Source: Apostichopus japonicus
Lineage: Eukaryota > Echinodermata > Holothuroidea > Aspidochirotida > Stichopodidae
DNA: 64,000 bases
Direction of reading: 5' to 3'
NCBI RefSeq assembly: GCF_037975245.1
Contig: NC_092568.1
Coordinates: 31,077,501-31,141,500 of the forward strand
Below, one piece after another: positions 3,085 through 64,000 of the stretch. The position numbers were made by a program, and so were the translations under genes. Position 1 is the stretch's first letter, and each line of letters opens with the position of its first letter. The notes under the pieces are model-generated. The model saw only the letters and a list, made by a program, of their open reading frames with translations. It had not been told where the DNA came from and searched no databases.

Positions 3085-4800
3085 ATGGTCTAGTGTTTTA
3101 GACTAAATAGTCTAGTCACTGTGATTGATGAACCCCAGCTTTTGTAATATGATATAAACATGACATTTAAGGCCATGAAAGTCTTTTTCAGTTTTCCCAT
3201 TGACTTTCCATTATATCAATGAACATGACCTAAGGTGTGTAAGACTTAACAGTCTAGTCACTGTGATTGATGAACCCCAGCTCTTTAACACGATATAAAC
3301 ATGTCATTTAAGGCCAGGAAAGTCTTTTTCAGTTTTACCATTGACTTTTGCATTGTATCAAAAGACCTGACCTAATGTGTTTTAGACTAAATAGTCTAGT
3401 CACTGAGATTGATGAACCCCAGCTCTTGTAACATGATATAGACATGTCATTTAAGGCCATGAAAGTCTTTTTCAGTTTTACCATTGACTTTTGCATTGTA
3501 TCAAAAGACCTGACCTAATGTGTTTTAGACTGAATAGTCTAGTCACCATGATTGATGGACCTCAGCTCTTGTAACATGATATAAACATGACATTTAAGGC
3601 CAAGAAAGTCTTTTTCAGGTTTCCCATTGAATTTTGCATGATATCAAAAGACCTGACCTGATGTGTTTTAGACTAAATAGTCTAGTCACTGTGAATGATG
3701 GACCCCAGCTCTTGTAACATCAATACACATGTCATATGAGGCCAGGAATGTCTTTTTCAGTTTTCCCATTGAATTTGCATTATACCAAAGAACCTGACCT
3801 AATGTGTTTTAGACTAAATAGTCTAGTCACTGTGATTGATGAACCCCAGCTCTTGTAACATGATATAAACATGTCATTTAAGGCCATGAAAGTCTTTTTC
3901 AGTTTTCCCATTGACTTTTGCATGATATCAAAAGACCTGACCTAATGGTGACATCCCTATGTTCCGACGTCTCTATGTTCCGACGTCTCTATGTTCCGAC
4001 GTCTCTATGTTCCGACAAATTGTTTGGACTTTTTGACCAAATTTTAGTCGGACCCCATTTGTGACCCAATTTTTTTTCGGACCCCATTTTTTGGACCCCA
4101 TTTTTTTGGACCACAATTTTTGGGACACAATTTTTTTGGACCCAATTTTTTTGTGCAAAATTTTTACGAACATGTTTTCGGACCAAATTTTTTTCTGACC
4201 AATGTTTTTGGGACCCCAACTATTTTGGACCAAAATTTTTCGGACCAAATTTTTTTCGGACCAATGTTTTTTGGGACCCCAACTATTTTGGACCAAACTT
4301 TTTCGGAACCAAATTTTTTTGGGACCCAACTTTTGCACCAACATGATTTCTGACCAATTTTTTCCCTGACCCCTAATTAGGTCCCAAAAAAATGGGTCCC
4401 AAAAAATTAAGTCCGAAAAATGGGTCCCCACAAATTGGGTCCACAAAAATTAGGTCCAAAAAAAATTGGGTCAGAAAAAAATTTGGTCTCAAAAAATTGG
4501 GTCCGAAAAAAATTTTGGTAAAAAAAAATTAGAGTCCAATCAATTTGTCGGAACATAGAGACGTCGGAACATAGAGACGTCGGAACATAGAGATGTAACC
4601 GACCTAATGTGTTTTAGACTAAATAGTCTAGTCACTGTGATTGATGAACCCCAGCTCTTGTAACATGATATAGACATGCCATTTGAGGCCATTAAAGTCT
4701 TTGTTTTCCCATTGAATTTGCATTATATCAGAGAACCTGACCTAATGTGTTTTAGACTAAATATTCTAATTACTGTGATTGATGAACCTCAACTCTTTAT
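3085..4800. repeat. ~142-bp satellite array, 8 units, split by a transposon
   Basis: Units begin near 3088, 3233, 3379, 3520, 3661, 3802, 4608 and 4747. Most carry GACCTAATGTG, the palindrome TAGACTAAATAGTCTA, GATTGATGAACCCCAGCTC and AAAGTCTTTTTCAGTTT. Units differ by a few substitutions and short indels. The element at 3947-4600 sits between the sixth and seventh units. Confidence 0.9.
3947..4600. mobile_element. Foldback-type non-autonomous DNA element with 8-bp target duplication
   Basis: 654 bp flanked by GACCTAAT at 3939-3946 and 4601-4608. Ends are inverted: GGTGACATCCCTATG at the left, complement of GGTTACATCTCTATG at the right. Each arm opens with tandem TCTCTATGTTCCGACG, then runs of TTTTTTGGACCCC on the left and the reverse complement on the right, turning near 4375. 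An 8-bp duplication with ends starting GG fits Merlin-like elements; hAT or P are less likely. No transposase is present. Confidence 0.8.
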
Positions 4801-32969: not shown

Positions 32970-34418
32970 TGATTGCAAAGGTTACGATTATCATCGAAAC
33001 CCAAAAACGTGCATGGGCTTCCGCTACAACAGACCATCCTTGGATGAGTGACTGGTCAAAAAACGTTCCTGTCCAAGATCTTTCACCATGCTTTTATCCT
33101 AGAAAACGACGCATAACAGTTCCAGATAAGAACTATACATAAGAACTTTACACAGCACTTTCATCAATTATGCAGTGGTTTAATCACAACACACACTCAC
33201 ATACATGTAACAGCCACAATGCAACCATTATGTTTCATTATCTGGTCTGTTCCCACACCACCCCCCACCCCCCTCTGCTCCTCCACTCCCACATACTCTC
33301 CCCATCCGTAAGATTGTTCGTACAAGGCCCAATGTACTTTATTCCAGAACTATCCCAATCCTGTCTATACCATACAATACATTGCAAAACCCTTCACACC
33401 AATAAATTGAATGATCAATTCTGATGGGCAGAAACTTTTAGACTCAAACTGTATTAAGGTCTTTCTTATTATTTTACACCAAAAGCAGAGGGTAGGATGT
33501 CAAACAGATGGAGTTTGGGCATTTTTCTGCTCGTACAAACTCCTGTCTCACACCCCCTCCCCCCCTCTCCACTCCTTTGACAAAAAACCCTTTTGTCACT
33601 ACTGTTGTTTACTTTGCAATGAAGAAACTGGAAACCCACAGGAGACTATTCTTGATTTTTGTGCAGAGGCAGATGGGTTTCACTTTTCACTTTGCGCCAA
33701 AGACCAAAGTGGTCAACAAATGAAGAAGGGCCTGTTTTTTTCTGCGACATAGTTATTACCAATTTTCATTTTTTCCTTTGTCTAATATCTCTCAGGATGT
33801 TAAGTTCCCAGTTACAGGAGGCTTGCTTACAACCAACCTAAGACTTTACTTAATTTAGCGAGGGAAAGTGAATACCCGACATAAAATACAACAACCCAGC
33901 ATTTAATTTGATGAGCTTTGCAAACCCCCCACCGTTTTGTGACTTTTTGGTGTGTTTTTTCCCCCGTTTTAATTATATTCTAGCATATTTGAAGCTATCC
34001 CGCAGCGTCTGATGTTCTCTTTAACAGAACTTCATGAAACCAAACCCGGATAACAATGCTTGGAAGATCATTAACCCCATTAACGAGGCTGCTTATAACG
34101 GAGATCAACGGAGGTGAATGGCCGTAAGAACAGTTCTTAACCTCCTTACGAGGGATGAATATGTCTGCGACCTTCCTTTTTGAAACTAACAGTCAACAAC
34201 TCGTGGAAGGTCAAAAACCTTACGAATGATAAAGCAAAAAAGGTTAAAGGAAGGCAGCAATGAGAATATGAAAACACGACCAACGAAAAAATTTTCCCCT
34301 TTCGTTTCGCAAGGAACGAAAGAGAAACAATTCTTGGAGGTAGCAGCAGCTGAGAGGGTAATATGATGCCGGGGACCGAAATAATTCTCGCGATATGAAA
34401 AAACAAAGATCGGCTTAC
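32970..34418. other. ppp1r21 intron 16 start; no exon matched
   Basis: Lies downstream of the exon 16 donor. Plus-strand frames at 33411-33752 overlap each other in two frames and show no domain. Confidence 0.5.
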
Positions 34419-34571
34419 CTCGGAGTTGAAGCTAACAACCTTTCCTTCTGAATCTTGACACTTTACAATTTCATTCCTCAAAATGTTCTGATAATGATCC
34501 TTTATTCTCTGTTCCCTCTGAATGGCGTCCGACATCTCCGAATCCATCGACACCGTGGTGACTTGTCCGAG
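34419..34571 (-). CDS. ppp1r21: ppp1r21 exon 16 (51 codons), last exon found
   Basis: Begins LGQVTTVSMDSEMSDAIQRE, continues RIKDHYQNIL and ends DSEGKVVSFNSE. It aligns with vertebrate EDLIKNHYMARIVEL...DSKSVHFYAE. KVVSF fits the degenerate PP1-docking pattern [RK]-x-[VI]-x-F. Acceptor TTCATAG|CTC, donor GAG|GTAAGC, phase 0, so at least one more exon must follow. Confidence 0.9.
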
Positions 34572-40500: not shown

Positions 40501-43500
40501 CTGCCTCCTCTCTGCAAAACACCCACAATCTAATTAGTTTGCTATGTCATTAATTTCTGTGGTATATATCAATATATCACTATCAAAGTTATGGTTATGA
40601 ACCTAAATTGTCTGAACCCAGGGAAGAAATCTGTTGTTTTGAGTTACAGGAGAGCAAACCTGAAATCGTTGCAAGAGGTCTGTTAAATTGGACATTTATG
40701 CAGATTTGCATGTACTCTAGATATAACTGTGTTAACAACGTGTAGGAGGCACATAAACTGCCAGATGAGCATCAAACATATATACATATGTATTGGTGCT
40801 CCTAGTCTTCACTGAGCCTCAAGTTAACTGGCTTAACATGTTGCTACCTCCAAGTTACTACCATGTGAGGTGCTATGTGGTGCTATGTGGTGCTATGTAC
40901 GGCTTAATTCAATCTAACCACGGCTTAATTCAATCTAACCACAGATGAAGTAACCAATACACATTGATAACAAGCATAATTCATGTTTTTCGATAACCGG
41001 TTAACCAACCAATAAGTTAGCCAGTTAATCGGTTTACAATGAAAAGAATTGATATTTAGCTTGTTATACAATGTAGATATCTATATCAAGTGTTTTGATC
41101 AGTAAACATGTAACGGGAGCTGGTAATATTTTAATGAGACAGCAGGGTTTTTGGTTTTTTTTTACTATTCTGACTTATCTCCCAATCCTTGCCCACCTCC
41201 CCCCTCGCCTACCTCCCGATGCTCATGACCTCAAATTTTCTCCCCTCTTGACCTGATCTCAGATGAGGAGGTAACTATACCAACTATTAACATATTTATT
41301 TTACAACCATGTTACCAAATCCAATTAACTGCTACGTTTATCCAATCCCATATCATATAACAATTCACATTGCTACCGTAGTCTCAAATCTACCTTCATA
41401 TTGTAAACAGGGGATACAACGTACATATTACTTGTAATGCTACCCTATATTAGAAAACTATATATCAGCAATAAACTAAACATACTCCCAGACTCAATCT
41501 AGCTTCAGTCAGCAGGTTATACCTACTGCTACCTCAAACATATCAGGTGGTCGCACATACTGACAATTCTGCTTCAGTTTCTCATTAAACTTAATCTATA
41601 TCCAGTTGGCTCGTAAAATGTGGGGGAAAAAAAATACCAAAAAAAAAGAGACAAGTTACATGAGTGACTATCCCCATCTAAAGAGATGTGTATAAGGTTA
41701 GGGTTCACCTGTCTTTCACTATAAGCACTTTCTTGCACACTGTAATTTAAATATGCAACATCTTCTGTGAACTCATCTGTGAATTGCACAGACACTTTGA
41801 GAATACATGTGTGAACCAGTAATTGCCATAGCAGTGTTCCCATTTCTGATTTCTGCTTTACAGGCTGATAAACCAAGGCTGCTAGTAGCTCACCAGCTTT
41901 TCCCTTACATAATCTGCACTCGTTTACATTAGACGTTTACGTCTTGACTCCTTCGAAACGGTTACATTCCTTCACCCCAGTTCTTACCCTATTTAGGCCG
42001 ACCATATATGCTACTGCTCTTTGTCTGAGCAGTGTAATGGTGGGCGAGGATCCCTTCCCATTGTCTGTGCTTCCAAAGCTGTGTCCTCGGGTCATGAACT
42101 CGATTGGAGTGGCAAAGAACTCTTGATTATTCGACAGAAATTTTGCCAACTGAGAGGAAAAAGAAAAAACCTGCAATAATCTTCAACCAGATGGGATTTA
42201 AATGCAATTTCGTATCTCAACACAAAATATTACCTTTCATCAGCAGCAGCCCTTTAATTACTTGCTTCCTTTTATCTCACAGTCCATTCTTTCCAACTCT
42301 TCTCTGTTCCCTATTTAACACATTTTGTCTGTTTTTGTTTTAGTCTGCAATTGAAAAGCTCTCGCTGGGAACGAAACGTCAGGCTCTCTAACTGTTATAC
42401 ACAGCTAAAAAGCACAAGGGAATTTTCTTGTTATGTCAAATTTTGAGTACAATTCTATGCCTTTCTTCTTCATCAACCCTCCTCATTACTTAAGCTACAT
42501 TGTCTATTGAGTTGTAACTTTGTGTCTACTCTGAGCAAACCATGTGATATTCACACATTACTGGATACCTCACAGACATCATCTCTTCATTACTTAAAGC
42601 TACACTGTCTACTGAGTTGTAACTTTGTGTCTACTCTGAGCAAACCATGTGATATTCACACATGACTGGATACCTCACAGACATCATCTCTTCATTACTT
42701 AAAGCTACATTGTCTATTGAGTTGTAACTTTGTGTCTACTCTGAGCAAACCATGTGATATTCACATATTACTGGATACCTCACAGACATCATCTCTTCAT
42801 TACTTAAAGCTACATTGTCCATTGAGTTGTAACTTTGTGTCTACTCTGAGCAAACCATGTGATATTCACATATTACTGGATACCTCACAGACATCATCTC
42901 TTCATTACTTAAAGCTACATTGTCCATTGAGTTGTAACTTTGTGTCTACTCTGAGCAAACCATGTGATATTCACACAAGACTGGATACCTCACAGACATC
43001 ATCTCTTCATTACTTAAAGCTACATTGTCTATTGAGTTGTAACTTTGTGTCTACTCTGAGCAAACCATGTGATATTCACATATTACTGGATACCTCACAG
43101 ACATCATCTCTTCATTACTTAAAGCTACATTGTCCATTGAGTTGTAACTTTGTGTCTACTCTGAGCAAACCATGTGATATATATAAAATATCATATAATT
43201 GATTTATTGTCGAAATGTTTAATTTGATCTTTAATTTTTTCTTCTCTTTTCTTTCTTCAGGGAGTCTTCTACATTGTTAAGCTATTGTATGCTTTATAGA
43301 AGACTTCCTTTCACCTTGTATATTTGCACGTGAAAAAACAAAATAAATCAAATCAAATCAAATCAAATATTCACACATGACTGGATACCTCACAGATATC
43401 TATGGTTATGTCAATTTCATTTCTCTTTTGGACAGTATGTACCGTTTCACCCTAATACAGCAATATTGATGCAACACATATTTATATGTTATGTTTTAAC

Positions 43501-49500: not shown

Positions 49501-52500
49501 CCATTAGTAGGCAAGGCTCACCCTTCACTGTCTGGACAGAAGGCATAGCATATCCATCACCATCCAGAGTGGTCACACTCTGTAGTACGTGGTGGTGCCA
49601 ACCAAGGTCTCGTATCACTTCTTTGTTGTTACATAGGGTTTAACTTTTCCTAATTATTTGTCCTAGTGATAAACTTTTGTGTTTTGTTTTAAAAAAAATT
49701 GTGTTTTTTATAATATACTATAAAAGTAATTTTGAAAGCTTTTGATGTGTTTTTCTGATGTGTTTTTATACTTAGACTAAGTCCAAATGATTGTCAGAAC
49801 AGTTTTTTGTCTAGTAGACATCTGGACATTAAAACTTGTGTCTAGTATTTTCTAAGAGTTGCAACTACACTCAGAAGAGGTTCCACTTTGATCCCTTCTA
49901 CTCTTTTATTTCACATCAGTGGATATTTATACTTATACATATTCCAAATGATTGTTAAAACACATTTCTCTAATAAACGTCTAAATTTAAACTTGTGTCT
50001 GGCTTTCTCTAAGAGTTGCAACTCCACTCAGTCATGGTTTCACTTTGATCCCTACTACTCAAGTATATCAGTGGATGTTTACACTCAGACTAATTCAAAA
50101 CGATTGTAAACATTTTGCACAGAATAAAAGGAAAAGAGAAAGACTGTCTGTTGACTAACCTGTGTCATTGAACGGTAGTTTATTATTGATAATTCCCATG
50201 GCCCACTGGATCTTGGCCTCTAGGTCCTCCTGTACCCTGGTCAGCTCGTCTGAACATTGGGCTGCCGTTAACGTTGAAGATTGAACCTACACTCGAAGAG
50301 AGATAAAAAGCCATTTAGTATGATTTGAAAATTTAAGATTTTCAAATATTTTCTTCAACAATCATCCTGCCTCTCACATGTAACAGATCTACAGCTCAAG
50401 TCCAATCAAATTATTAATAAAAACACGAAAAAGAAAAGGTGATCTCTGACACATATTCTTTGCAATCACATTTTCATGAATGGTGCGTCGGTATAAGCCA
50501 AAACAGATACCTGTATACCCGCTGACGAATACCCTGTATTCCCGGGTATACCATAATTTTTTTGCAGAACCTCTACTTCCAGCGTTAACTATGCTATCAA
50601 ACACTAACATGAACCTATGGACACTAGCCTAGCCTACAAATGTATATGCGATTTAATAACGACTTTCCATCTCTGTTTTTTTTCTTTTGCAGCAACTTAT
50701 TTAAAGATTTTCAGAACAGGTATGAATATACGTAATGCGCAGAATCGTATTAAGATTGTCTAAGACAGTGCTACCACTTCTGACAAAAACAGGTTGGTAT
50801 GGGTATGAATGAAATACCCAGTATACCTGATATATCGGTATACCGACGCACCCTATTTCTATGTACCAATGAATCAATAAACTGCTTCAGGAACATCATT
50901 GTTTCGACTTATATGTGGGCTACATTTGTAAGCCATGAGTTGAAAAGAGTTTTAGAGCAACAAATTTAATTTGTTATGTTGTCTGCTGTCATAATTACTG
51001 GACTACATATCTGCCTTTGTGCTAATAAAGCAAAACAATGTAAAATCTTGCACAAAAAAAAATGTGTAACAAAATAATGAAATCTTCAAACCTAAAACAC
51101 TATAAGTTCTACTCGACTCAAGATTTTCAATTCAGAACCATTTTGTTTTTTGTATATTGCTCAAGAGGAATGTTTATAGTTTATTTATAAGATAATTTGC
51201 TAAAACCATAATATTTTCCCATGCACCAACAAATGTTATATTAACTCTTGTATCAATAATATAAACCAAATTCTTTCCAACCTTTTGTAAACAGAATAGT
51301 GCGGAGGGCATATTAATGATTGATAACCCCAAACATACAAAACAACACTTTCGTAAAGCATATAATTATCTGATTTACAGGTTGAGAGAAAATGACATTT
51401 GAAACATACCACACACCCCAAAACTTTTTTGACCTCGTTAACAACAACTACAAAAATTAAATTTCTCACCACTTTTTCTTGATTCTGGACTTTAATTTCT
51501 AGTCTAGCTTTGTCTTCTTGAAGTCTCTCCACGGTCTCCTGATGTTCTCTTTTCAAACCTTCCAGGACACTTTGATGTTGACTATTTTCTCTCTCCAAAT
51601 TTTCCAGTCTGTTTTGTAAATCTGTGACTGATTGTACATGTTGTTCAGAGCCATCATTCAGCTGTCCAACAAGAAAAAGAGACACCCAAACCTTAATTTT
51701 AATTTCAAGAAATATAATCTTAAAGAGTTCTTTGACTTTCTTCAAAGATAGCTCAATCCAATCAATTTACTGAGAAATTTCCCACAGAGGTGATTTCTAC
51801 CAAATGTTTGCATAAAAAAGGGGGGGAAACAAACACCTTGGTTCCATGATAAACAATTAATTTTTATAATAGAAATGTTTAATACTTTCACATGGTGGTG
51901 GTCCTGATGATACTACCGTCATGAATTTGATGCATTACAGAAAAAAAAGTATTATGCATTTATCGAAGAACTACTATACAAATTTGGATTTGTTACAATT
52001 TGTCCACTTTTGCCCCACAATATCAGATTACAGATGCGCAATATTTGCTTCATTTCTATGAATATTTTCGATATGTATTGGAGTATGTCCGTGAACACAT
52101 TAGCATACACTTCTGCAGAAAGACAAGGGTTGGGTCTAGATAGATTATACTTATAACTTGAGAAAATAAAATAAAACTGAGGTCAGATGTAAGAGTTAAG
52201 AGTTTCTTCTGATTTTATCAGCAGGTTTGTTTACTTCAAGCTCCATGAGTCTGTCAAAATGCATTTATCATGGTCTTGTTAAGACAAAAAGAAAAAAAAA
52301 TTCCATCCATTCAAATCATTTCCCCTCCTAGCTTTACACCTAACTTCTCTTACCTTACGACCGACCATCATGCAATGCCCACACTCAGTTTCCCATTTGG
52401 GGGCAGGGGAAAGGGTAAGTAGTATTGTTAATAACGAGGATCCCTGCAAACATGTTATCTTCAGACCTTGGGCACCCTTTGTAGGATCCCTGTAGGTCCA

Positions 52501-55500
52501 CTACCAACACAGAACACATGTTGTCTAACACCTATTCCATTTCATCAGTTTTCATCTGTTACTATATCACTCAATTTGACATATGAAACAGATCACAGAC
52601 ACAACAAAATACAATAAAACAAATACATAAAAACAAGCTACTTTATGTAGCAGCTCATTGAGACCTTTTGATGAAGCTTGGCGATTTCTTCAATCTTTGA
52701 TCTCAATTCAGTTTGGAGTATTTCTAACGTCGGGTCAGATATATGGTGATCATCTCCTCTCACCTGTTCATAGACGACAAAGAGATGAAACAAAGATATA
52801 AACAATCACACGGTAGAAATAGCTTCCTAAAAAACAAATTATCAGCTTAAATAAGTGTTTGAAAGTTAATGAAAATGTTTAATGAAGTATTACCAAGTAT
52901 TTGAAGTTTTTATGAAAAATTAAATTAAATTAAATTTAGTTATCAAATCAGTGGTGCAGTAGAAATACCAGAGTGAGAAATAGAGTGTATATTAATAACA
53001 GAACTTAATAATATAATAATAGAAAACATAGCATATATGTACAAGGATTCAGAAAGTATAAACTTTGTTTGTCCGTTGATGAAAGGAAACCAGAGAGGAA
53101 GTTTCAAAGAAACTTACGTAATTTTCTGCACTAACTTAGGAAACCAAATGAGATGGAAAAAAGGGGGTGGGGTTGGCGGGGGGGTTAAGCAACCAAAGAA
53201 GAAAGAGAAGGAGAAGAAAATACTGTATGAAATATGTTTAACACCATATAAATAGAGAAAACCTGCTACTATAAAGTAACCTTTGACCTGGGGCAAGAAC
53301 AACTGGCATTTGTACTCATGGTGGGCATGCATCCACCACTATATATATATTATTATGTCACAGTTTATGTTTCTTGCGATAACAATTTGACAAATTTTTC
53401 ATTCCAAAATTTGGTTTCACATTAAAGCCAAACATAATAAACAAACTCCATGTTAGCATTTTCCCCTATTTTTGCTGTTGTCATGAACTTTACATACTTG
53501 GATGGAAATTTTACTTTTAACGTGAAAATGGACATTTACATTTCTGTTTACTTAATTTTCTTAACTATATTCACATCAGTTTCTCATAGTTTGGAACTAA
53601 AAACTTAGCAGTCCATGGGTGAACTTTGCTTACCGCGTTCTTGCTTCCTCTGCTTTCAGCGGTGCGGAGTTGTTCTTGGAGTCCTTCAACTTTCTTCGTC
53701 AACTGCTGATTGCGGAAATTCAGACTCTCGTTTTCTTGCTCTATCTTGCGAATTTTGAGATCCCTCTCTTTTATGGCGTCCTGAAAAATGAAAACAGAAG
53801 TGAGTCAATGGATATAGAAACACTGAAAGCCAAAATCAGTAAAATCGGTCATTCACTGCCTTCAAAGCTCTTTAATCCTACTTCTAAGATTTCTAGAAAT
53901 ATTTGTAAAAAAAAAAAAAAAAAACTTTCATCTTAAGAATTTCTTTTTCAATCTTGAATAATGTGACAAAACATGTTACAACATTAATTTCAATCATGAG
54001 TTGAAGCAGCTCAAAATAAACACTTTGATAATAAAATTAAACAAAATTAAACTAACAAGAAAATATTTCCTTTTTACAATCAAACTTGTTTATAAATTAG
54101 GATCATTATTATGACTTCCTGAACATCCTACTTGAGGAATCTACCTAACAAATATTTGTATCATTTTTGTCATTCTTTGAAAGACTTCCAGTTCCACTAT
54201 CATGTTTTCAATACACAGGTTTTTGAAAAAAGTTAGGGGATGAGTAATCTCTATAGCAAGGCACGAAACAACTTTCATAACCCATGAACGCTTCATCACC
54301 AGCCCACCCCACCTCCCCTTAGATATACTCCTCAGCTAAAGTAAATATGAAATCCGGCCCACCTACCAACCCCCACCCCCCTCGCACAATAAAATGCAAA
54401 ATAAAAATCATTTTCAAACCTTGTGCTGTTTCTCCAAGTCTCTGTTTGTGATAACTGCTTCTTTCAGAACCTGATTCTCATTTTTTTTCTGTAAAAAATA
54501 AAATCATTCATTTTTCTATAAAGCTTTAAATAACCAACTGAGTGAAAACTTGATACTTTGGAAAATAAAATTTTGGAATTGTTCTGGAGAATACATAAAC
54601 TGCTTTTCAATTTTCAAAGCTCACCAATATTCAAAAAATATGCCAGACAGTCAATTAATGGTTACTCACACACAAATTTTATAGAGCATTTTACTATCAT
54701 CTTCAAAGAATTGTTCCTCACTGAGTCCTCTAATTTCCTAACTTTCCACACTTTCAAATTGTCAGCCTCTAATATATATTTATTTTCCCACTCAGGCCTT
54801 TCGTTGACAATTGTTTTTTCTCCCTTTGACTTTCTAATGTATCTGGAAAACTCATCTGAAATGTCAAAGCCTACAGAATGAAGCCTATGAATGATCAAAT
54901 ACCTCAACAAAATTTCCAATGTCACATGAAGCTTAGAAACTGACAAACTTTTTAATGTGATTGAATTGACAAATTCCAAGATAAGCAGTATGTTTATACT
55001 AGTGTTCGATGATAATGGGTTTTACCGATTACCCACTAGTTCCTGTGACAATTGGGCCGATGCCGATTACCGATTATTTCATCATTTTCTTGGAACTTGC
55101 CTAATGTATGATTTAGCGTATATGCATGATTACCAACTTCTAGGCCAATACAATCATATATGTAAATGAAAAACTTAACGTTTCACAAAAAAGATTAATG
55201 GAGTAAGTAAAGAACACTGTAATACATACATGGGGCGCTGAACTTTATAACGAGGAGTCGCAATCTTGCAATCCCGCCACAACGCGTAAATGCGTAAAGG
55301 TAAGTTGGCCTGACGTTTCGATCCTAGCAGGATCGAAACGTCAGGCCAACATACTTCTACACTTATGCTTGCACAGGCTCTTTAGTGGATAAGCAGTTCG
55401 CTAACAATTTTATTTTATTATGAAAAAAAAAACAATCCTGAACGTCTGCTTCAAGTTTTCAATGGTTACCATCTGCGAGGGAAAACTTCCGATGGAACGT

Positions 55501-57300: not shown

Positions 57301-58285
57301 GCTGTGACTGAAACCTGCATTGGGGGAGGGTATAAGGGGGGTTTCCCTCACGTGAACTTAGCAACAGTATAACCAAATGTAAAGAGCGCCATGTAAACTG
57401 CAGACGTGCATCAATGGTTGCAGAACTTGCAGAAGATACCAGTAGTTGTAGGGAAATCATGCCAAGTGGCCACACTCGTCAAGCGACCGTACCTGTGCTT
57501 TCTTATCCCATAATCATTTCCATACTGAAATAACGTTTTCAAATATTAAAAGAATTATTACCGACGAGACTGTACATATTATCAGTCATGAACACATATG
57601 AAATGACTACCGGCACTGAGTATAAGTGGACGTGCTATTCGGTGTTGCGGAAGTGTGGTAGGGGAAATTCCTCTCCCGTATCCCTTAATATATGCAGTTA
57701 AGAACATAATTTCTTTAATTGGGCATCCATAACCGTCATCTTCCACAGTGGCATGTTTATAATTTCCATCTTCAAATCCAACCCTCACTCCACCCCACCC
57801 CATATTGGGGGCAAGTTCCTTTACGTGTTTACCACCACTAAAAACAAGCATAGGAGTGAGAAAGGAAAAGACATCTGAGGTTGGAGAGAGGTCTTCAGCC
57901 CACCCACTCCAAAGGAAAACTAATAATACTTCAACTTAATTCTCCGTCTCCACTATACAGTTCTGTCTCTCTGAGTTTAAAATACTTTCGATAGCTCTTT
58001 TACATGATAGAGCGCGGGAAACTATAAAACAAATTATAGTCAACTTTATCTTTCGCTGATCCTTTCCGGCCCAGAAGATTTCCTTTACAAAAATCAAATG
58101 TAAAATATGTCTTAGTAAAACTACCGTTATAAAAAACAAAGTTTTACACTCGTAATATTCATAGGCGAAAAAGACCATTATTTCAAATAATTTGTTCTTC
58201 TTTCATTATGGGAACTATAACTCATTAGTTTCATTTTACTCATGCGAATTTGAGAATTTCAATTAAAAGAGAAAAATGAAATGGA
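57300..58285. other. Intergenic between ppp1r21 and the tRNA array
   Basis: Apart from the open frame at 57582-57851, AT-rich sequence without recognisable features. The two divergent transcription units are separated by about 1.4 kb. Confidence 0.6.
57582..57851 (-). other. Unrecognised 89-codon open frame, possible exon
   Basis: Reads like protein in its first 55 codons (KHVKELAPNMGWGG, VGFEDGNYKHATVEDDGYGC), with balanced codon use. It is preceded by a plausible acceptor (TGTTTTTAG at about 57840). I know no domain with these words. No donor or partner exon is seen, so it may be a relic exon of a neighbouring gene or chance. Confidence 0.25.
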
Positions 58286-58344
58286 CCCTGTATAGTAAGA
58301 TGGAAGACATCTCTAGGTCGCTGGTTCGATTCCGGCTCGAAGGA
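58286..58344 (+). pseudogene. tRNA-Tyr 3' fragment at the array edge
   Basis: Matches only from the anticodon region (CTGTATAGTAAGATGG) to the CCA-less 3' end (GGCTCGAAGGA). The 5' half is replaced by unrelated sequence, marking the left edge of the array. Confidence 0.85.
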
Positions 58345-58619
58345 TTCCTTTTGCAAAAGTCAAACATTTACCAGTATTTATCGAAGTCATCATCTTGTAG
58401 CTCTATTTCAATAGCATAATGCTCCGGTGAAAACATGCACTATAGATTTAGTTTTTACGATGTAATACCCACACAAACACAATGGAGGGGGGGGGGGGGA
58501 GGGTTGATGACCCTGAAATTCACAACTGATATAGATTGAGTGTGTATGATGTTATTCGAATATTTTAACAATAGGGTCGTAAATTGATGTTATTGATGAG
58601 ATTGCTTAATATCCAGTGT

Positions 58620-58707
58620 CCTTCGATAGCTCAGTTGGTAGAGCGGGAGACTGTACTTAGATGGAAGACATCTCTATAGGTCGCTGGTTCGATTCCGGCT
58701 CGAATGA
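58620..58707 (+). pseudogene. tRNA-Tyr-like copy 1, probably defective
   Basis: 88 nt. Anticodon GTA is present, but base 37 is C instead of G, the variable loop has two extra bases (CTCTATAGG) and the acceptor stem has a mismatch (CGAATGA). Shares all three changes with the copy at 62339. Confidence 0.7.
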
Positions 58708-58987
58708 TTCCTTTTGCAAAAGTCAAACATTTACCAGTATTTATCGACGTCATCAACTAATTGTAGCTCTATTTCAATAGCATTATGCTCCGGTGAAAAC
58801 ATGCACTATAGATTTAGTTTTTACGATGTAATACCCACACAAACACAGTGGAGAGGGGGGAGGGGGGTGTTGACGACCCTGAAATCCACAACTGGCTTAG
58901 ATTTGGTTTGCAAGATGTTCTTCGAATATTTTAACAAAAAAGGGTCGTAAATTGATGTTATTGATGAGATTGCTTAATATTCAGTGT

Positions 58988-59073
58988 CCTTCGATAGCTC
59001 AGTTGGTAGAGCGGGAGACTGTAGTTAGATGGAAGACATCTGTAGGTCGCTGGTTCGATTCCGGCTCGAAGGA
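58988..59073 (+). tRNA. tRNA-Tyr-GTA: tRNA-Tyr(GTA) with 13-nt intron, one stem mismatch
   Basis: 86 nt, intron between positions 37 and 38. The anticodon stem carries G at position 42 (ATCTGTAGG), giving a G28-G42 mismatch. All other stems pair. Confidence 0.75.
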
Positions 59074-59353
59074 TTCCTTTTGCAAAAGTCAAACATTTAC
59101 CAGTATTTATCGACGTCATCAACTAATTGTAGCTCTATTTCAATAGCATTATGCTCCGGTGAAAACATGCACTATAGATTTAGTTTTTACGATGTAATAC
59201 CCACACAAACACAGTGGAGAGGGGGGAGGGGGGTGTTGACGACCCTGAAATCCACAACTGATTTAGATTTGGTTTGCAAGATGTTCTTCGAATATTTTAA
59301 CAAAAAAGGGTCGTAAATTGATGTTATTGATGAGATTGCTTAATATTCAGTGT

Positions 59354-59439
59354 CCTTCGATAGCTCAGTTGGTAGAGCGGGAGACTGTAGTTAGATGGAA
59401 GACATCTGTAGGTCGCTGGTTCGATTCCGGCTCGAAGGA
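59354..59439 (+). tRNA. tRNA-Tyr-GTA: tRNA-Tyr(GTA) with 13-nt intron, one stem mismatch
   Basis: Identical in type to the copy at 58988 (ATCTGTAGG variant). TTTT terminator follows. Confidence 0.75.
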
Positions 59440-59712
59440 TTCCTTTTGCAAAAGTCAAACATTTACCAGTATTTATCGACGTCATCATCTTGTAGCTCTA
59501 TTTCAATAGCATAATGCTCCGGTGAAAACATGCACTATAGATTTAGTTTTTACGATGTAATACCCACACAAACACAGTGGAGGGGGGGGGGGGGGGTTGA
59601 TGACCCTGAAATCCACAACTGATATAGATTGAGTGTGTATGATGTTATTCGAATATTTTAACAAAAGGGTCGTAAATTGATGTTATTGATGAGATTGCTT
59701 AATATTCAGTGT

Positions 59713-59796
59713 CCTTCGATAGCTCAGTTGGTAGAGCGGGAGACTAGTTAGATGGAAGACATCTCTAGGTCGCTGGTTCGATTCCGGCTCGAATGA
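59713..59796 (+). pseudogene. tRNA-Tyr copy lacking an intact anticodon
   Basis: 84 nt: two bases are missing in the anticodon loop (GAGACTAGTTAG instead of GAGACTGTAGTTAG) and the acceptor stem has the AATGA variant. It cannot decode tyrosine. Confidence 0.85.
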
Positions 59797-60074
59797 TTCC
59801 TTTTGCAAAAGTCAAACATTTACCAGTATTTATCGACGTCATCAACTAATTGTAGCTCTATTTCAATAGCATTATGCTCCGGTGAAAACATGCACTATAG
59901 ATTTAGTTTTTACGATGTAATACCCACACAAACACAGTGGAGAGGGGGGAAGGGGATGTTGACGACCCTGAAATCCACAACTGATTTAGATTTGGTTTGC
60001 ATCATGTTCTTCGAATATTTTAACAAAATGGTCCTAAATTGATGTTATTGATGAGATTGCTTAATATTCAGTGT

Positions 60075-60160
60075 CCTTCGATAGCTCAGTTGGTAGAGCG
60101 GGAGACTGTAGTTAGATGGAAGACATCTCTAGGTCGCTGGTTCGATTCCGGCTCGAAGGA
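60075..60160 (+). tRNA. tRNA-Tyr-GTA: tRNA-Tyr(GTA) with 13-nt intron, consensus
   Basis: Decodes tyrosine codons TAC/TAT. CCTTCGA/TCGAAGG acceptor, D stem GCTC/GAGC, anticodon stem GGAGA/TCTCT, loop CTGTAG|A interrupted after G37 by TTAGATGGAAGAC, T stem GCTGG/CCGGC with loop TTCGATT, discriminator A. A box TAGCTCAGTTGG and B box GGTTCGATTCC are intact. TTTT lies 5 nt past the 3' end. Tyr tRNA genes typically carry an intron at this site in eukaryotes. Confidence 0.95.
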
Positions 60161-60164
60161 TTCC

Positions 60165-60168
60165 TTTT
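60165..60168 (+). terminator. Pol III terminator, representative of the array
   Basis: TTTT, 5 nt after the tRNA 3' end. The same TTCCTTTT follows all 15 copies and the 3' fragment, so each unit can terminate independently. Confidence 0.8.
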
Positions 60169-60438
60169 GCAAAAGTCAAACATTTACCAGTATTTATCGA
60201 CGTCATCAACTAATTGTAGCTCTATTTCAATAGCATTATGCTCCGGTGAAAACATGCACTGTAGATTTAGTTTTTACGATGTAATACCCACACAAACACA
60301 GTGGAGAGGGGGGAAGGGGATGTTGACGACCCTGAAATCCACAACTGATTTAGATTTGGATTGCATCATGTTCTTCGAATATTTTAACAGAAGGGTCCTA
60401 AATTGATGTTATTGATGAGATTGCTTAATATTCAGTGT

Positions 60439-60524
60439 CCTTCGATAGCTCAGTTGGTAGAGCGGGAGACTGTAGTTAGATGGAAGACATCTCTAGGTCG
60501 CTGGTTCGATTCCGGCTCGAAGGA
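60439..60524 (+). tRNA. tRNA-Tyr-GTA: tRNA-Tyr(GTA) with 13-nt intron, consensus
   Basis: Same as the consensus copy at 60075. Its downstream spacer is cut short and replaced by a duplicated retroelement tail (60580-60880). Confidence 0.94.
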
Positions 60525-60579
60525 TTCCTTTTGCAAAAGTCAAACATTTACCAGTATTTATCGATGTCATGAACTTGTT

Positions 60580-60880
60580 TTGTTAAGCCTGTATTGTTAA
60601 GCTTGTTTTGTTAAGTCATCAACTGTTTTGTTAAGCCAGCATAGGCTTTTCAGAAGACTTCCATTCACATTGTAAAATGTATGTGAAAAAAACAAATAAA
60701 TGAATGAATGAAATTGATGTTATTGATGAGATTGCTTAATATAGGCTTGTTTTGTTAAGTCATCAACTGTTTTGTTAAGCCAGCATAGGCTTTTCAGAAG
60801 ACTTCCATTCACATTGTAAAATGTATGTGAAAAAACAAATAAATGAATGAATGAAGTTGATGTTATTGATGAGATTGCTT
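60580..60880 (+). mobile_element. Duplicated retroelement tail in the tRNA array
   Basis: Two tandem ~144-bp copies, each with TTTTGTTAAGCCAGCATAGG, TTTTCAGAAGACTTCCATTC and GTGAAAAAACAAATAAATGA, then the array's own GATGTTATTGATGAGATTGC. Related to the tail at 43184-43370. The element inserted once and was then duplicated together with array sequence. Confidence 0.7.
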
Positions 60881-60892
60881 TATATTCAGTGT

Positions 60893-60978
60893 CCTTCGAT
60901 AGCTCAGTTGGTAGAGCGGGAGACTGTAGTTAGATGGAAGACATCTCTAGGTCGCTGGTTCGATTCCGGCTCGAAGGA
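60893..60978 (+). tRNA. tRNA-Tyr-GTA: tRNA-Tyr(GTA) with 13-nt intron, consensus
   Basis: Consensus copy; the first tRNA after the retroelement tail. The upstream box differs slightly (TTTATATTCAGTGT instead of TTAATATTCAGTGT). Confidence 0.94.
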
Positions 60979-61255
60979 TTCCTTTTGCAAAAGTCAAACA
61001 TTTACCAGTATTTATCGACGTCATCAACTAATTGTAGCTCTATTTCAATAGCATTATGCTCCGGTGAAAACATGCACTGTAGATTTAGTTTTTACGATGT
61101 AATACCCACACAAACACAGTGGAGAGGGGGGAAGGGATGTTGACGACCCTGAAATCCACAACTGATTTAGATTTGGTTTGCATCATGTTCTTCGAATATT
61201 TTAACAAAATGGTCCTAAATTCATGTTATTGATGAGATTGCTTAATATTCAGTGT

Positions 61256-61341
61256 CCTTCGATAGCTCAGTTGGTAGAGCGGGAGACTGTAGTTAGATGG
61301 AAGACATCTCTAGGTCGCTGGTTCGATTCCGGCTCGAAGGA
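61256..61341 (+). tRNA. tRNA-Tyr-GTA: tRNA-Tyr(GTA) with 13-nt intron, consensus
   Basis: All stems pair, intron as in the other copies, TTTT terminator downstream. Confidence 0.94.
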
Positions 61342-61615
61342 TTCCTTTTGCAAAAGTCAAACATTTACCAGTATTTATCGACGTCATCAACTAATTGTAG
61401 CTCTATTTCAATAGCATTATGCTCTGGTGAAAACATGCACTATAGATTTAGTTTTTACGATGTAATACCCACACAAACACAGTGGAGAGGGGGGGGGGGT
61501 TGACGACCCTGAAATCCACAACTGATTTAGATTTGGTTTGCAAGATGTTCTTCGAATATTTTAACAATAGGGTCCTAAATTCATGTTATTGATGAGATTG
61601 GTTAATATTCAGTGT

Positions 61616-61701
61616 CCTTCGATAGCTCAGTTGGTAGAGCGGGAGACTGTAGTTAGATGGAAGACATCTCTAGGTCGCTGGTTCGATTCCGGCTCGAATG
61701 A
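61616..61701 (+). tRNA. tRNA-Tyr-GTA: tRNA-Tyr(GTA), one acceptor mismatch
   Basis: Anticodon and intron are intact, but position 71 is T (CGAATGA), leaving C2 unpaired. Function uncertain. Confidence 0.7.
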
Positions 61702-61977
61702 TTCCTTTTGCAAAGTCAAACATTTACCAGTATTTATCGACGTCATCAACTTGTAGCTCTATTTCAATAGCATTATGCTCCGGTGAAAACATGCACTGTA
61801 GATTTAGTTTTTACGATGTAATACCCACACAAACACAGTGGAGAGGGGGGAAGGGGATATTGACGACCCTGAAATCCACAACTGATTTAGATTTGGTTTG
61901 CAAGATGTTCTTCGAATATTTTAACAAAAAAGGGTCGTAAATTGATGTTATTGGTGAGATTGCTTAATATTCAGTGT

Positions 61978-62063
61978 CCTTCGATAGCTCAGTTGGTAGA
62001 GCGGGAGACTGTAGTTAGATGGAAGACATCTCTAGGTCGCTGGTTCGATTCCGGCTCGAAGGA
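61978..62063 (+). tRNA. tRNA-Tyr-GTA: tRNA-Tyr(GTA) with 13-nt intron, consensus
   Basis: Consensus copy. It lies just before the start of the second higher-order repeat. Confidence 0.94.
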
Positions 62064-62338
62064 TTCCTTTTGCAAAGTCAAACATTTACCAGTTTTTATC
62101 GACGTCATCAACTTGTAGCTCTATTTCAATAGCATTATGTTCCGGTGAAAACATGCACTGTAGATTTAGTTTTTACGATGTAATACCCACACAAACACAA
62201 TGGAGGGGGGGGGGGGGGAGGGTTGATGACCCTGAAATTCACAACTGATATAGATTGAGTGTGTATGATGTTATTCGAATATTTTAACAAAAGGGTCGTA
62301 AATTGATGTTATTGATGAGATTGCTTAATATCCAGTGT

Positions 62339-62426
62339 CCTTCGATAGCTCAGTTGGTAGAGCGGGAGACTGTACTTAGATGGAAGACATCTCTATAGGT
62401 CGCTGGTTCGATTCCGGCTCGAATGA
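62339..62426 (+). pseudogene. tRNA-Tyr-like copy, probably defective (twin of 58620)
   Basis: Same C37, two-base variable-loop insertion and acceptor mismatch as the copy 3,719 bp upstream. Confidence 0.7.
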
Positions 62427-62706
62427 TTCCTTTTGCAAAAGTCAAACATTTACCAGTATTTATCGACGTCATCAACTAATTGTAGCTCTATTTCAATAGC
62501 ATTATGCTCCGGTGAAAACATGCACTATAGATTTAGTTTTTACGATGTAATACCCACACAAACACAGTGGAGAGGGGGGAGGGGGGTGTTGACGACCCTG
62601 AAATCCACAACTGGCTTAGATTTGGTTTGCAAGATGTTCTTCGAATATTTTAACAAAAAAGGGTCGTAAATTGATGTTATTGATGAGATTGCTTAATATT
62701 CAGTGT

Positions 62707-62792
62707 CCTTCGATAGCTCAGTTGGTAGAGCGGGAGACTGTAGTTAGATGGAAGACATCTGTAGGTCGCTGGTTCGATTCCGGCTCGAAGGA
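62707..62792 (+). tRNA. tRNA-Tyr-GTA: tRNA-Tyr(GTA), one stem mismatch (twin of 58988)
   Basis: G42 variant as in the copy 3,719 bp upstream; otherwise intact. Confidence 0.75.
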
Positions 62793-63072
62793 TTCCTTTT
62801 GCAAAAGTCAAACATTTACCAGTATTTATCGACGTCATCAACTAATTGTAGCTCTATTTCAATAGCATTATGCTCCGGTGAAAACATGCACTATAGATTT
62901 AGTTTTTACGATGTAATACCCACACAAACACAGTGGAGAGGGGGGAGGGGGGTGTTGACGACCCTGAAATCCACAACTGATTTAGATTTGGTTTGCAAGA
63001 TGTTCTTCGAATATTTTAACAAAAAAGGGTCGTAAATTGATGTTATTGATGAGATTGCTTAATATTCAGTGT

Positions 63073-63158
63073 CCTTCGATAGCTCAGTTGGTAGAGCGGG
63101 AGACTGTAGTTAGATGGAAGACATCTGTAGGTCGCTGGTTCGATTCCGGCTCGAAGGA
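63073..63158 (+). tRNA. tRNA-Tyr-GTA: tRNA-Tyr(GTA), one stem mismatch (twin of 59354)
   Basis: G42 variant; otherwise intact, with TTTT terminator. Confidence 0.75.
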
Positions 63159-63430
63159 TTCCTTTTGCAAAAGTCAAACATTTACCAGTATTTATCGACG
63201 TCATCATCTTGTAGCTCTATTTCAATAGCATAATGCTCCGGTGAAAACATGCACTATAGATTTAGTTTTTACGATGTAATACCCACACAAACACAGTGGA
63301 GGGGGGGGGGGGGGTTGATGACCCTGAAATCCACAACTGATATAGATTGAGTGTGTATGATGTTATTCGAATATTTTAACAAAAGGGTCGTAAATTGATG
63401 TTATTGATGAGATTGCTTAATATTCAGTGT

Positions 63431-63514
63431 CCTTCGATAGCTCAGTTGGTAGAGCGGGAGACTAGTTAGATGGAAGACATCTCTAGGTCGCTGGTTCGAT
63501 TCCGGCTCGAATGA
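63431..63514 (+). pseudogene. tRNA-Tyr copy lacking an intact anticodon (twin of 59713)
   Basis: Same two-base loss in the anticodon loop and same acceptor variant as its twin. Confidence 0.85.
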
Positions 63515-63792
63515 TTCCTTTTGCAAAAGTCAAACATTTACCAGTATTTATCGACGTCATCAACTAATTGTAGCTCTATTTCAATAGCATTATGCTCCGG
63601 TGAAAACATGCACTATAGATTTAGTTTTTACGATGTAATACCCACACAAACACAGTGGAGAGGGGGGAAGGGGATGTTGACGACCCTGAAATCCACAACT
63701 GATTTAGATTTGGTTTGCATCATGTTCTTCGAATATTTTAACAAAATGGTCCTAAATTGATGTTATTGATGAGATTGCTTAATATTCAGTGT

Positions 63793-63878
63793 CCTTCGAT
63801 AGCTCAGTTGGTAGAGCGGGAGACTGTAGTTAGATGGAAGACATCTCTAGGTCGCTGGTTCGATTCCGGCTCGAAGGA
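63793..63878 (+). tRNA. tRNA-Tyr-GTA: tRNA-Tyr(GTA) with 13-nt intron, consensus (twin of 60075)
   Basis: Consensus copy, last complete one in the window. The spacer after it matches the spacer after 60075, including GCACTGTAGATTTAG. Confidence 0.94.
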
Positions 63879-64000
63879 TTCCTTTTGCAAAAGTCAAACA
63901 TTTACCAGTATTTATCGACGTCATCAACTAATTGTAGCTCTATTTCAATAGCATTATGCTCCGGTGAAAACATGCACTGTAGATTTAGTTTTTACGATGT

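Follow-up and report, generated by a model that had tools for sequence, protein, structure and literature searches.

The last part of a 64,000-nucleotide stretch from the sea cucumber Apostichopus japonicus (assembly GCF_037975245.1, contig NC_092568.1, forward-strand positions 31,077,501 to 31,141,500; referred to as the window, with all positions counted from its first base) contains a tandem array of transfer RNA (tRNA) genes for tyrosine. In all likelihood the array arose from a tRNA-Tyr gene of the RNA polymerase III (Pol III) class, which would have been amplified near the PPP1R21 gene by unequal crossing-over and gene conversion.

Detection and layout of the array

Based on the Rfam tRNA model RF00005, 15 full-length tRNA-Tyr copies were identified on the + strand between 58620 and 63878, arranged head to tail at a spacing of approximately 360 bp. 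The gathering score of this model (29) was exceeded by all 15 copies, six of which scored 58.6 bits, five 51.5-51.6, two 49.8 and two 45.4. ARAGORN with bacterial settings reported no tRNAs in the window; with introns allowed, it recovered the same 15 copies as Rfam and called 13 of them Tyr(gta) with a 13-nucleotide intron. The copies at 59712 and 63430 were called Thr(agt) with an 11-nucleotide intron because two bases of their anticodon loops are deleted. Three further matches (35794, 36373 and 42352) appeared at a laxer ARAGORN threshold; all lie outside the array and are probably spurious. An array of 15 tRNA-Tyr(GTA) copies had been claimed in the original prediction and was found by both programs. 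Its tally of six perfect copies, five with one mismatch and four probably dead was also right for the 15, in which we counted six perfect, five with a single stem mismatch and four badly damaged.

The units (lettered in Table 1) are 358-368 bp long, except for unit f (454 bp) and the last one, which is cut at 64000 by the window end. Tandem Repeats Finder (TRF) reported a period of 366 at 58293-60575 and again at 60857-64000. When the complete units other than f were compared with unit h by BLAST, they showed 92-97% identity over 363-371 columns with E values of 4e-132 or lower, so that chance is not an issue. The array is likely to continue past the window, the last unit being cut. Several hallmarks of a tandem tRNA array are present, namely head-to-tail units each having a tRNA gene and a shared spacer, intact genes mixed with pseudogenes, and a decayed copy flanking the array (57987-58099).

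Gene anatomy

All 21 cloverleaf pairs are formed in the perfect gene body, and the 13-nucleotide intron is located after position 37. Sites fitting the general consensus for box A and box B were found in 15 of 15 copies. The same is true of a TTTT run beginning at the fifth base past the tRNA 3' end, in keeping with the predicted Pol III terminator of each copy. The GTA anticodon was called in 13 of the 15. In six identical perfect copies the anatomy of a tRNA-Tyr gene (cloverleaf, GTA anticodon, intron after 37, boxes and T-run) is complete. Two recurrent variants differ by one stem mismatch, G28/G42 in the b type and C2/U71 in the i type. Cloverleaf energies were computed for these three forms, giving -25.4 kcal/mol for the perfect gene, -22.0 for the i type and -20.5 for the b type. 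Folding was not used further as an indicator of function, since the free minimum-energy structure departs from the cloverleaf even in the perfect copy.

Block repeat and hybrid unit

The sequence at 58573-60282 recurs at 62292-64000 with zero substitutions and one difference in the length of a G-run over about 1.7 kb. Units a2 to e2 are thus a repeat of units a to e at an offset of 3718-3719 bp, and the 15 copies therefore do not represent independent events. Ten distinct units (a to j) were recognized, of which five are intact (e, f, g, h and j), three have one mismatch (b, c and i) and two are dead (a and d). The remaining five copies, including two of the four dead ones, arose with the block duplication or with an assembly repeat. 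The birth and decay of genes put forward in the original prediction is upheld as far as turnover of the array is concerned; its extent was overcounted by these five copies, which go back to a single duplication or assembly repeat. The block repeat, seen in a single sequence, bears only indirectly on whole-unit changes of copy number between individuals. Additions to the original prediction are the 3.72-kb block repeat, the 281 bp inserted into unit f and the decayed copy at 57987-58099; the copy at 58286, where its array started, is truncated.

The spacer G-run varies in length (it occupies 61489-61499 in one unit and the equivalent site in others) and is the sole difference between the block copies. 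It is lost with the insert in f and lies past the window end in e2.

Unit j is situated at the junction of the blocks. Over alignment columns 33-192 it has three differences from unit i and nine from the truncated unit x at the left edge of the array, while over columns 258-460 there are 22 differences from i, two from x and six from c, the other unit with the spacer type of j. Between these segments (columns 192-258) it is indistinguishable from all nine units compared. When a runs test was applied to the 30 columns that set i apart from x, it gave six runs with a p value of 0.0019, which is too small because indel bases were counted as separate columns and because i and x were picked after the alignment had been viewed. 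The variants of j at unit positions 118 and 167 occur in no other unit compared. Unit j is a hybrid, with the pattern expected if an i-like unit had exchanged unequally with an x-like one; an assembly loop would also close at this point and would look much the same.

Exchange between units

Sequence diversity was compared among nine distinct units, f being excluded for its insert and a2 to e2 as repeats. Pairwise differences ranged from 0.9 to 5.6%. For the tRNA gene, mean diversity (pi) was 0.013, with 0.015 in the exons and 0 in the intron. The spacer without its G-run had a mean of 0.035, and its least diverse stretch of 86 columns had a value of 0.0133, nearly that of the gene. Variable columns numbered 28 of 259 in the spacer versus three of 86 in the gene (Fisher p = 0.048, which is too small because the columns are dependent, many spacer columns co-varying as one type in c and j). 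The gene holds three substitutions, two of which break a stem.

In the four-gamete test, 64 of 210 informative column pairs (indel columns included) were incompatible, corresponding to at least four recombinations. The U71 allele is found in a, d and i despite their differing spacer backgrounds, and the G42 allele is shared by b and c, whose spacers differ. Exchange between units is supported by the incompatible sites and by the hybrid unit j, as would be expected under concerted evolution similar to that of ribosomal DNA, which had been proposed from the first inspection of the sequence. The accompanying claim, that the spacer is kept as similar as the gene, is doubtful on the mean diversity values given above; in view of the low-diversity stretch and the marginal Fisher test it is not disproved.

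Origin and fate of the units

We propose that head-to-tail amplification acted on a nuclear tRNA-Tyr(GUA) gene with a 13-nucleotide intron and on about 275 bp of DNA adjoining it. Each unit would be a separate gene for RNA polymerase III, its transcription and splicing being predicted from sequence signals. Units would have been lost, gained and partly homogenized via unequal crossing-over and gene conversion among misaligned repeats, and the most recent visible event, judged from the structure, would be the duplication of up to ten units (3.72 kb), which would have left hybrid j at the junction. The intact units probably supply tRNA-Tyr. Redundancy of the array would allow single copies to drift into pseudogenes, and damaged copies would persist because of this redundancy; copies at the edge, beyond the reach of exchange, would be expected to decay most strongly.

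Several observations weigh against this explanation. The third substitution in the gene affects base 37, which adjoins the anticodon, and may be harmful; together with the two stem-breaking substitutions it gives no indication that individual copies are under selection. When folded without constraint, the precursor has a minimum-energy structure other than the cloverleaf, and for the spliced form a non-cloverleaf minimum is favoured (-27.5 versus -25.4 kcal/mol), minimum-energy folds being a poor test for tRNA. Part of the incompatible column pairs could be due to parallel changes. Similarity between units does not rise with proximity (Mantel r = 0.13, p = 0.23), and no local gradient of conversion was seen in this comparison. 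The second block (62292-64000) could also be an artefact of assembly, caused by loop-back within the repeat or by joined haplotypes, and the true array in view would then consist of ten units. This possibility is unlikely but has to be taken seriously, as zero substitutions over 1.7 kb compare with 0.9-5.6% between distinct units and the join falls within unit j of the repeat, as that of a graph loop would. Identity is however also expected from recent unequal crossing-over, and the unique variants of j at 118 and 167 argue mildly against a simple join of i and x.

The amplification of an active gene has further to be weighed against the idea that the array is inert, a satellite-like sequence that is silenced and kept by recombination only, comparable to the Ser-Tyr-Tyr cluster of Arabidopsis, which is silenced in most tissues. 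Such an array would fit the finding that five of the ten distinct units have an altered tRNA body and that at least two of the three substitutions break a stem. Five of the ten are nevertheless perfect with all Pol III signals and mean diversity is lower in the gene than in the spacer, which makes inertness rather improbable. There is also no excess CpG decay (observed/expected 0.85 in the array and 0.56 in its unit h spacer, versus 0.44 in the first 57.9 kb of the window), though none would be expected in a young array. A main role as a chromatin boundary beside PPP1R21, exerted through TFIIIC or CTCF in the way suggested for the tRNA repeat at human 1q23.3, appears improbable; it would agree with the adjoining protein-coding gene, with intact box A and box B sites in all 15 copies and with the CTCF precedent in human (PMC4041453). 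We consider it still less probable that the array is a recent, repeated dosage locus for tyrosine-rich secreted material in particular cells, an animal counterpart of the Arabidopsis Ser-Tyr-Tyr cluster whose copy number would vary strongly between individuals. Least probable of all is that the units are tRNA-derived short interspersed elements (SINEs) inserted or amplified in tandem. SINEs often start with tRNA-like promoters, and the insert in f resembles an interspersed repeat; the tRNA here is, however, a full, near-perfect gene with an intron, and the copies lie head to tail at constant spacing. Apart from the array and its decayed neighbour, the window gave only matches of 17-47 bp (E of 0.06 or higher) in a BLAST search with the unit. 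With no dispersed copies of the unit in the window, a SINE origin was set aside.

Comparison with other tRNA gene clusters

The locus belongs to a known kind of tRNA gene cluster with a known mechanism. Large tRNA clusters arose independently many times, according to a survey of eukaryotic tRNA genes (PMC2888827). The closest anatomy is that of the tRNA-Cys cluster on chromosome 5 of Arabidopsis thaliana. In that cluster, too, head-to-tail units (about 420 bp) hold a single tRNA gene each, a decayed tRNA pseudogene directly precedes the first unit on its 5' side, and marks of mobile elements are present; it changes mostly in copy number by whole units (PMC10701932). This plant cluster differs in having tRNA-Cys genes in 4-6 units of 84-94% identity (PMC10701932), whereas the sea cucumber array is from an animal and has a block repeat and, in view, 15 full-length copies of an intron-bearing tRNA-Tyr gene. 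In terms of the gene involved, the closest case is the Ser-Tyr-Tyr cluster on chromosome 1 of Arabidopsis, where intron-bearing tRNA-Tyr genes are likewise in tandem with a mixture of intact copies and pseudogenes, and where a core region has grown by tandem duplication, as here, between variable edges (PMC12308677). Unlike the sea cucumber array, that plant cluster has three genes per unit (Ser, Tyr, Tyr); it is silenced in most tissues and active in root cap cells (PMC12308677). It comprises 27 units in almost 40 kb (PMC10701932).

The variable-number tandem repeat at human 1q23.3 is also composed of animal repeat units holding tRNA genes, but its units are 7.3 kb long and bind CTCF, and tRNA genes make up less than 6% of each (PMC4041453), compared with 0.36-kb units and one gene type here. 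The tRNA arrays of Entamoeba are similar in their tandem units and in a homogenization ascribed to concerted evolution; they differ in that nearly all tRNA genes of the genome are arrayed, with up to five genes per unit (PMC2652664). Unlike the sea cucumber array, those of E. histolytica and E. dispar have short tandem repeats in their spacers (PMC2652664). Among the matches listed in the literature search, which mostly did not cover subscription papers, there was no animal array of tRNA-Tyr alone in units of about 360 bp, and no priority is claimed.

While the array leaves the knowledge of tRNA genes unchanged, it is a clean case of a one-gene array in which a single sequence reveals a block repeat, a hybrid junction unit, damaging alleles shared between units and an edge pseudogene. 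It would be of use for measuring how units exchange sequence and how dosage and decay are balanced in tRNA families.

Table 1. Features of the tRNA-Tyr array and its left edge (window coordinates).
Feature	Position	Strand	Evidence
Decayed older tRNA-Tyr copy with ~23 bp of array 3' flank; remaining spacer unrecognizable	57987-58099	+	Local alignment score 71
Unit x: 5'-truncated tRNA copy (58284-58344) and spacer to 58619; left edge of array	58284-58619	+	BLAST match from 58293
tRNA-Tyr a: G37C, TA insertion at 3' anticodon arm, C2/U71 mismatch; probably dead	58620-58707	+	45.4 bits, alignment
tRNA-Tyr b: G28/G42 mismatch	58988-59073	+	51.5 bits
tRNA-Tyr c: change identical to b	59354-59439	+	51.5 bits
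tRNA copy d: two anticodon-loop bases deleted, acceptor-stem change as in i; probably dead	59713-59796	+	49.8 bits
tRNA-Tyr e, perfect	60075-60160	+	58.6 bits
tRNA-Tyr f, perfect	60439-60524	+	58.6 bits
281-bp insert in place of most of the f spacer	60576-60856	+	Self-match 97-98%
tRNA-Tyr g, perfect	60893-60978	+	58.6 bits
tRNA-Tyr h, perfect; intron 61293-61305	61256-61341	+	58.6 bits
tRNA-Tyr i: C2/U71 mismatch	61616-61701	+	51.6 bits
Unit j: perfect tRNA-Tyr (61978-62063); spacer i-like 5', x-like 3'	61978-62338	+	Rfam 58.6 bits and alignment
tRNA-Tyr a2, identical to a	62339-62426	+	45.4 bits
tRNA-Tyr b2, identical to b	62707-62792	+	51.5 bits
tRNA-Tyr c2, identical to c	63073-63158	+	51.5 bits
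tRNA copy d2, identical to d	63431-63514	+	49.8 bits
tRNA-Tyr e2, perfect; unit cut at window end	63793-63878	+	58.6 bits
Block repeat, first copy (offset 3718-3719)	58573-60282	+	Compared with 62292-64000
Block repeat, second copy, open at window end	62292-64000	+	Compared with 58573-60282

Edge copy, insert and surrounding sequence

The alignment score of the decayed copy to the left of the array (71) compares with 43 for the best of 45 other tiles and 45 for a reverse probe. The insert in f is made up of two fragment copies, 97-98% alike, each with an AATG-repeat tail, that flank 32 bp of array spacer; it was probably duplicated along with the end of the spacer by the same type of exchange as the units. 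A 78-column stretch of this insert is matched at 78-79% by the sequence at 43274-43351, and both are probably pieces of an interspersed repeat family.

Parts of the PPP1R21 gene, separated by large introns, are predicted on the - strand between 34146 and 53804. The open reading frame (ORF) at 53571-53804 (- strand) matches residues 46-97 of the solved chain 7nd2_A (PPP1R21), and that at 51236-51766 (- strand) matches residues 126-195 of the same chain (E = 5.7e-11, its best solved match), its top Pfam match being a centrosomal coiled-coil family below threshold. The C-terminal match is weak: the ORF at 34146-34571 (- strand) scored 20.7 bits against the Pfam PPP1R21 C-terminal domain, below the cut-off of 27.3, and had no match among solved structures. 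The ORF at 52638-52805 had four weak matches (three sc-apCC chains and one autophagy protein 16), none of them to PPP1R21. None of the four window ORFs scanned against Pfam reached a curated cut-off. The array lies upstream of the PPP1R21 matches, with about 4.5 kb between it and the 5'-most one found. The PPP1R21 matches and the tRNA-Tyr body, which looks like that of animals, suggest an animal nuclear genome. An exact 23-base pattern from the spacer was absent from genome_contigs and viral_contigs, and an exact 42-base tRNA pattern from genome_contigs, as is to be expected of collections of prokaryotes and viruses.

Other repeats were noted elsewhere in the window. Using TRF, tandem arrays were identified at 3093-3947 (143-bp unit, 6 copies, 88% matches) and at 42479-43180 (105-bp unit, 6.7 copies, 96% matches). 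The region 3950-4593 looks like a palindromic element with mirror-image short repeats, (CTATGTTCCGACGTCT)n at 3957-4016 and its inverse at 4547-4593, and diverged CGGACCAAA / GGGTCCAAA repeats were reported by TRF between these arms. A 67-bp sequence at 55294-55360 matches its own reverse complement at 87%.

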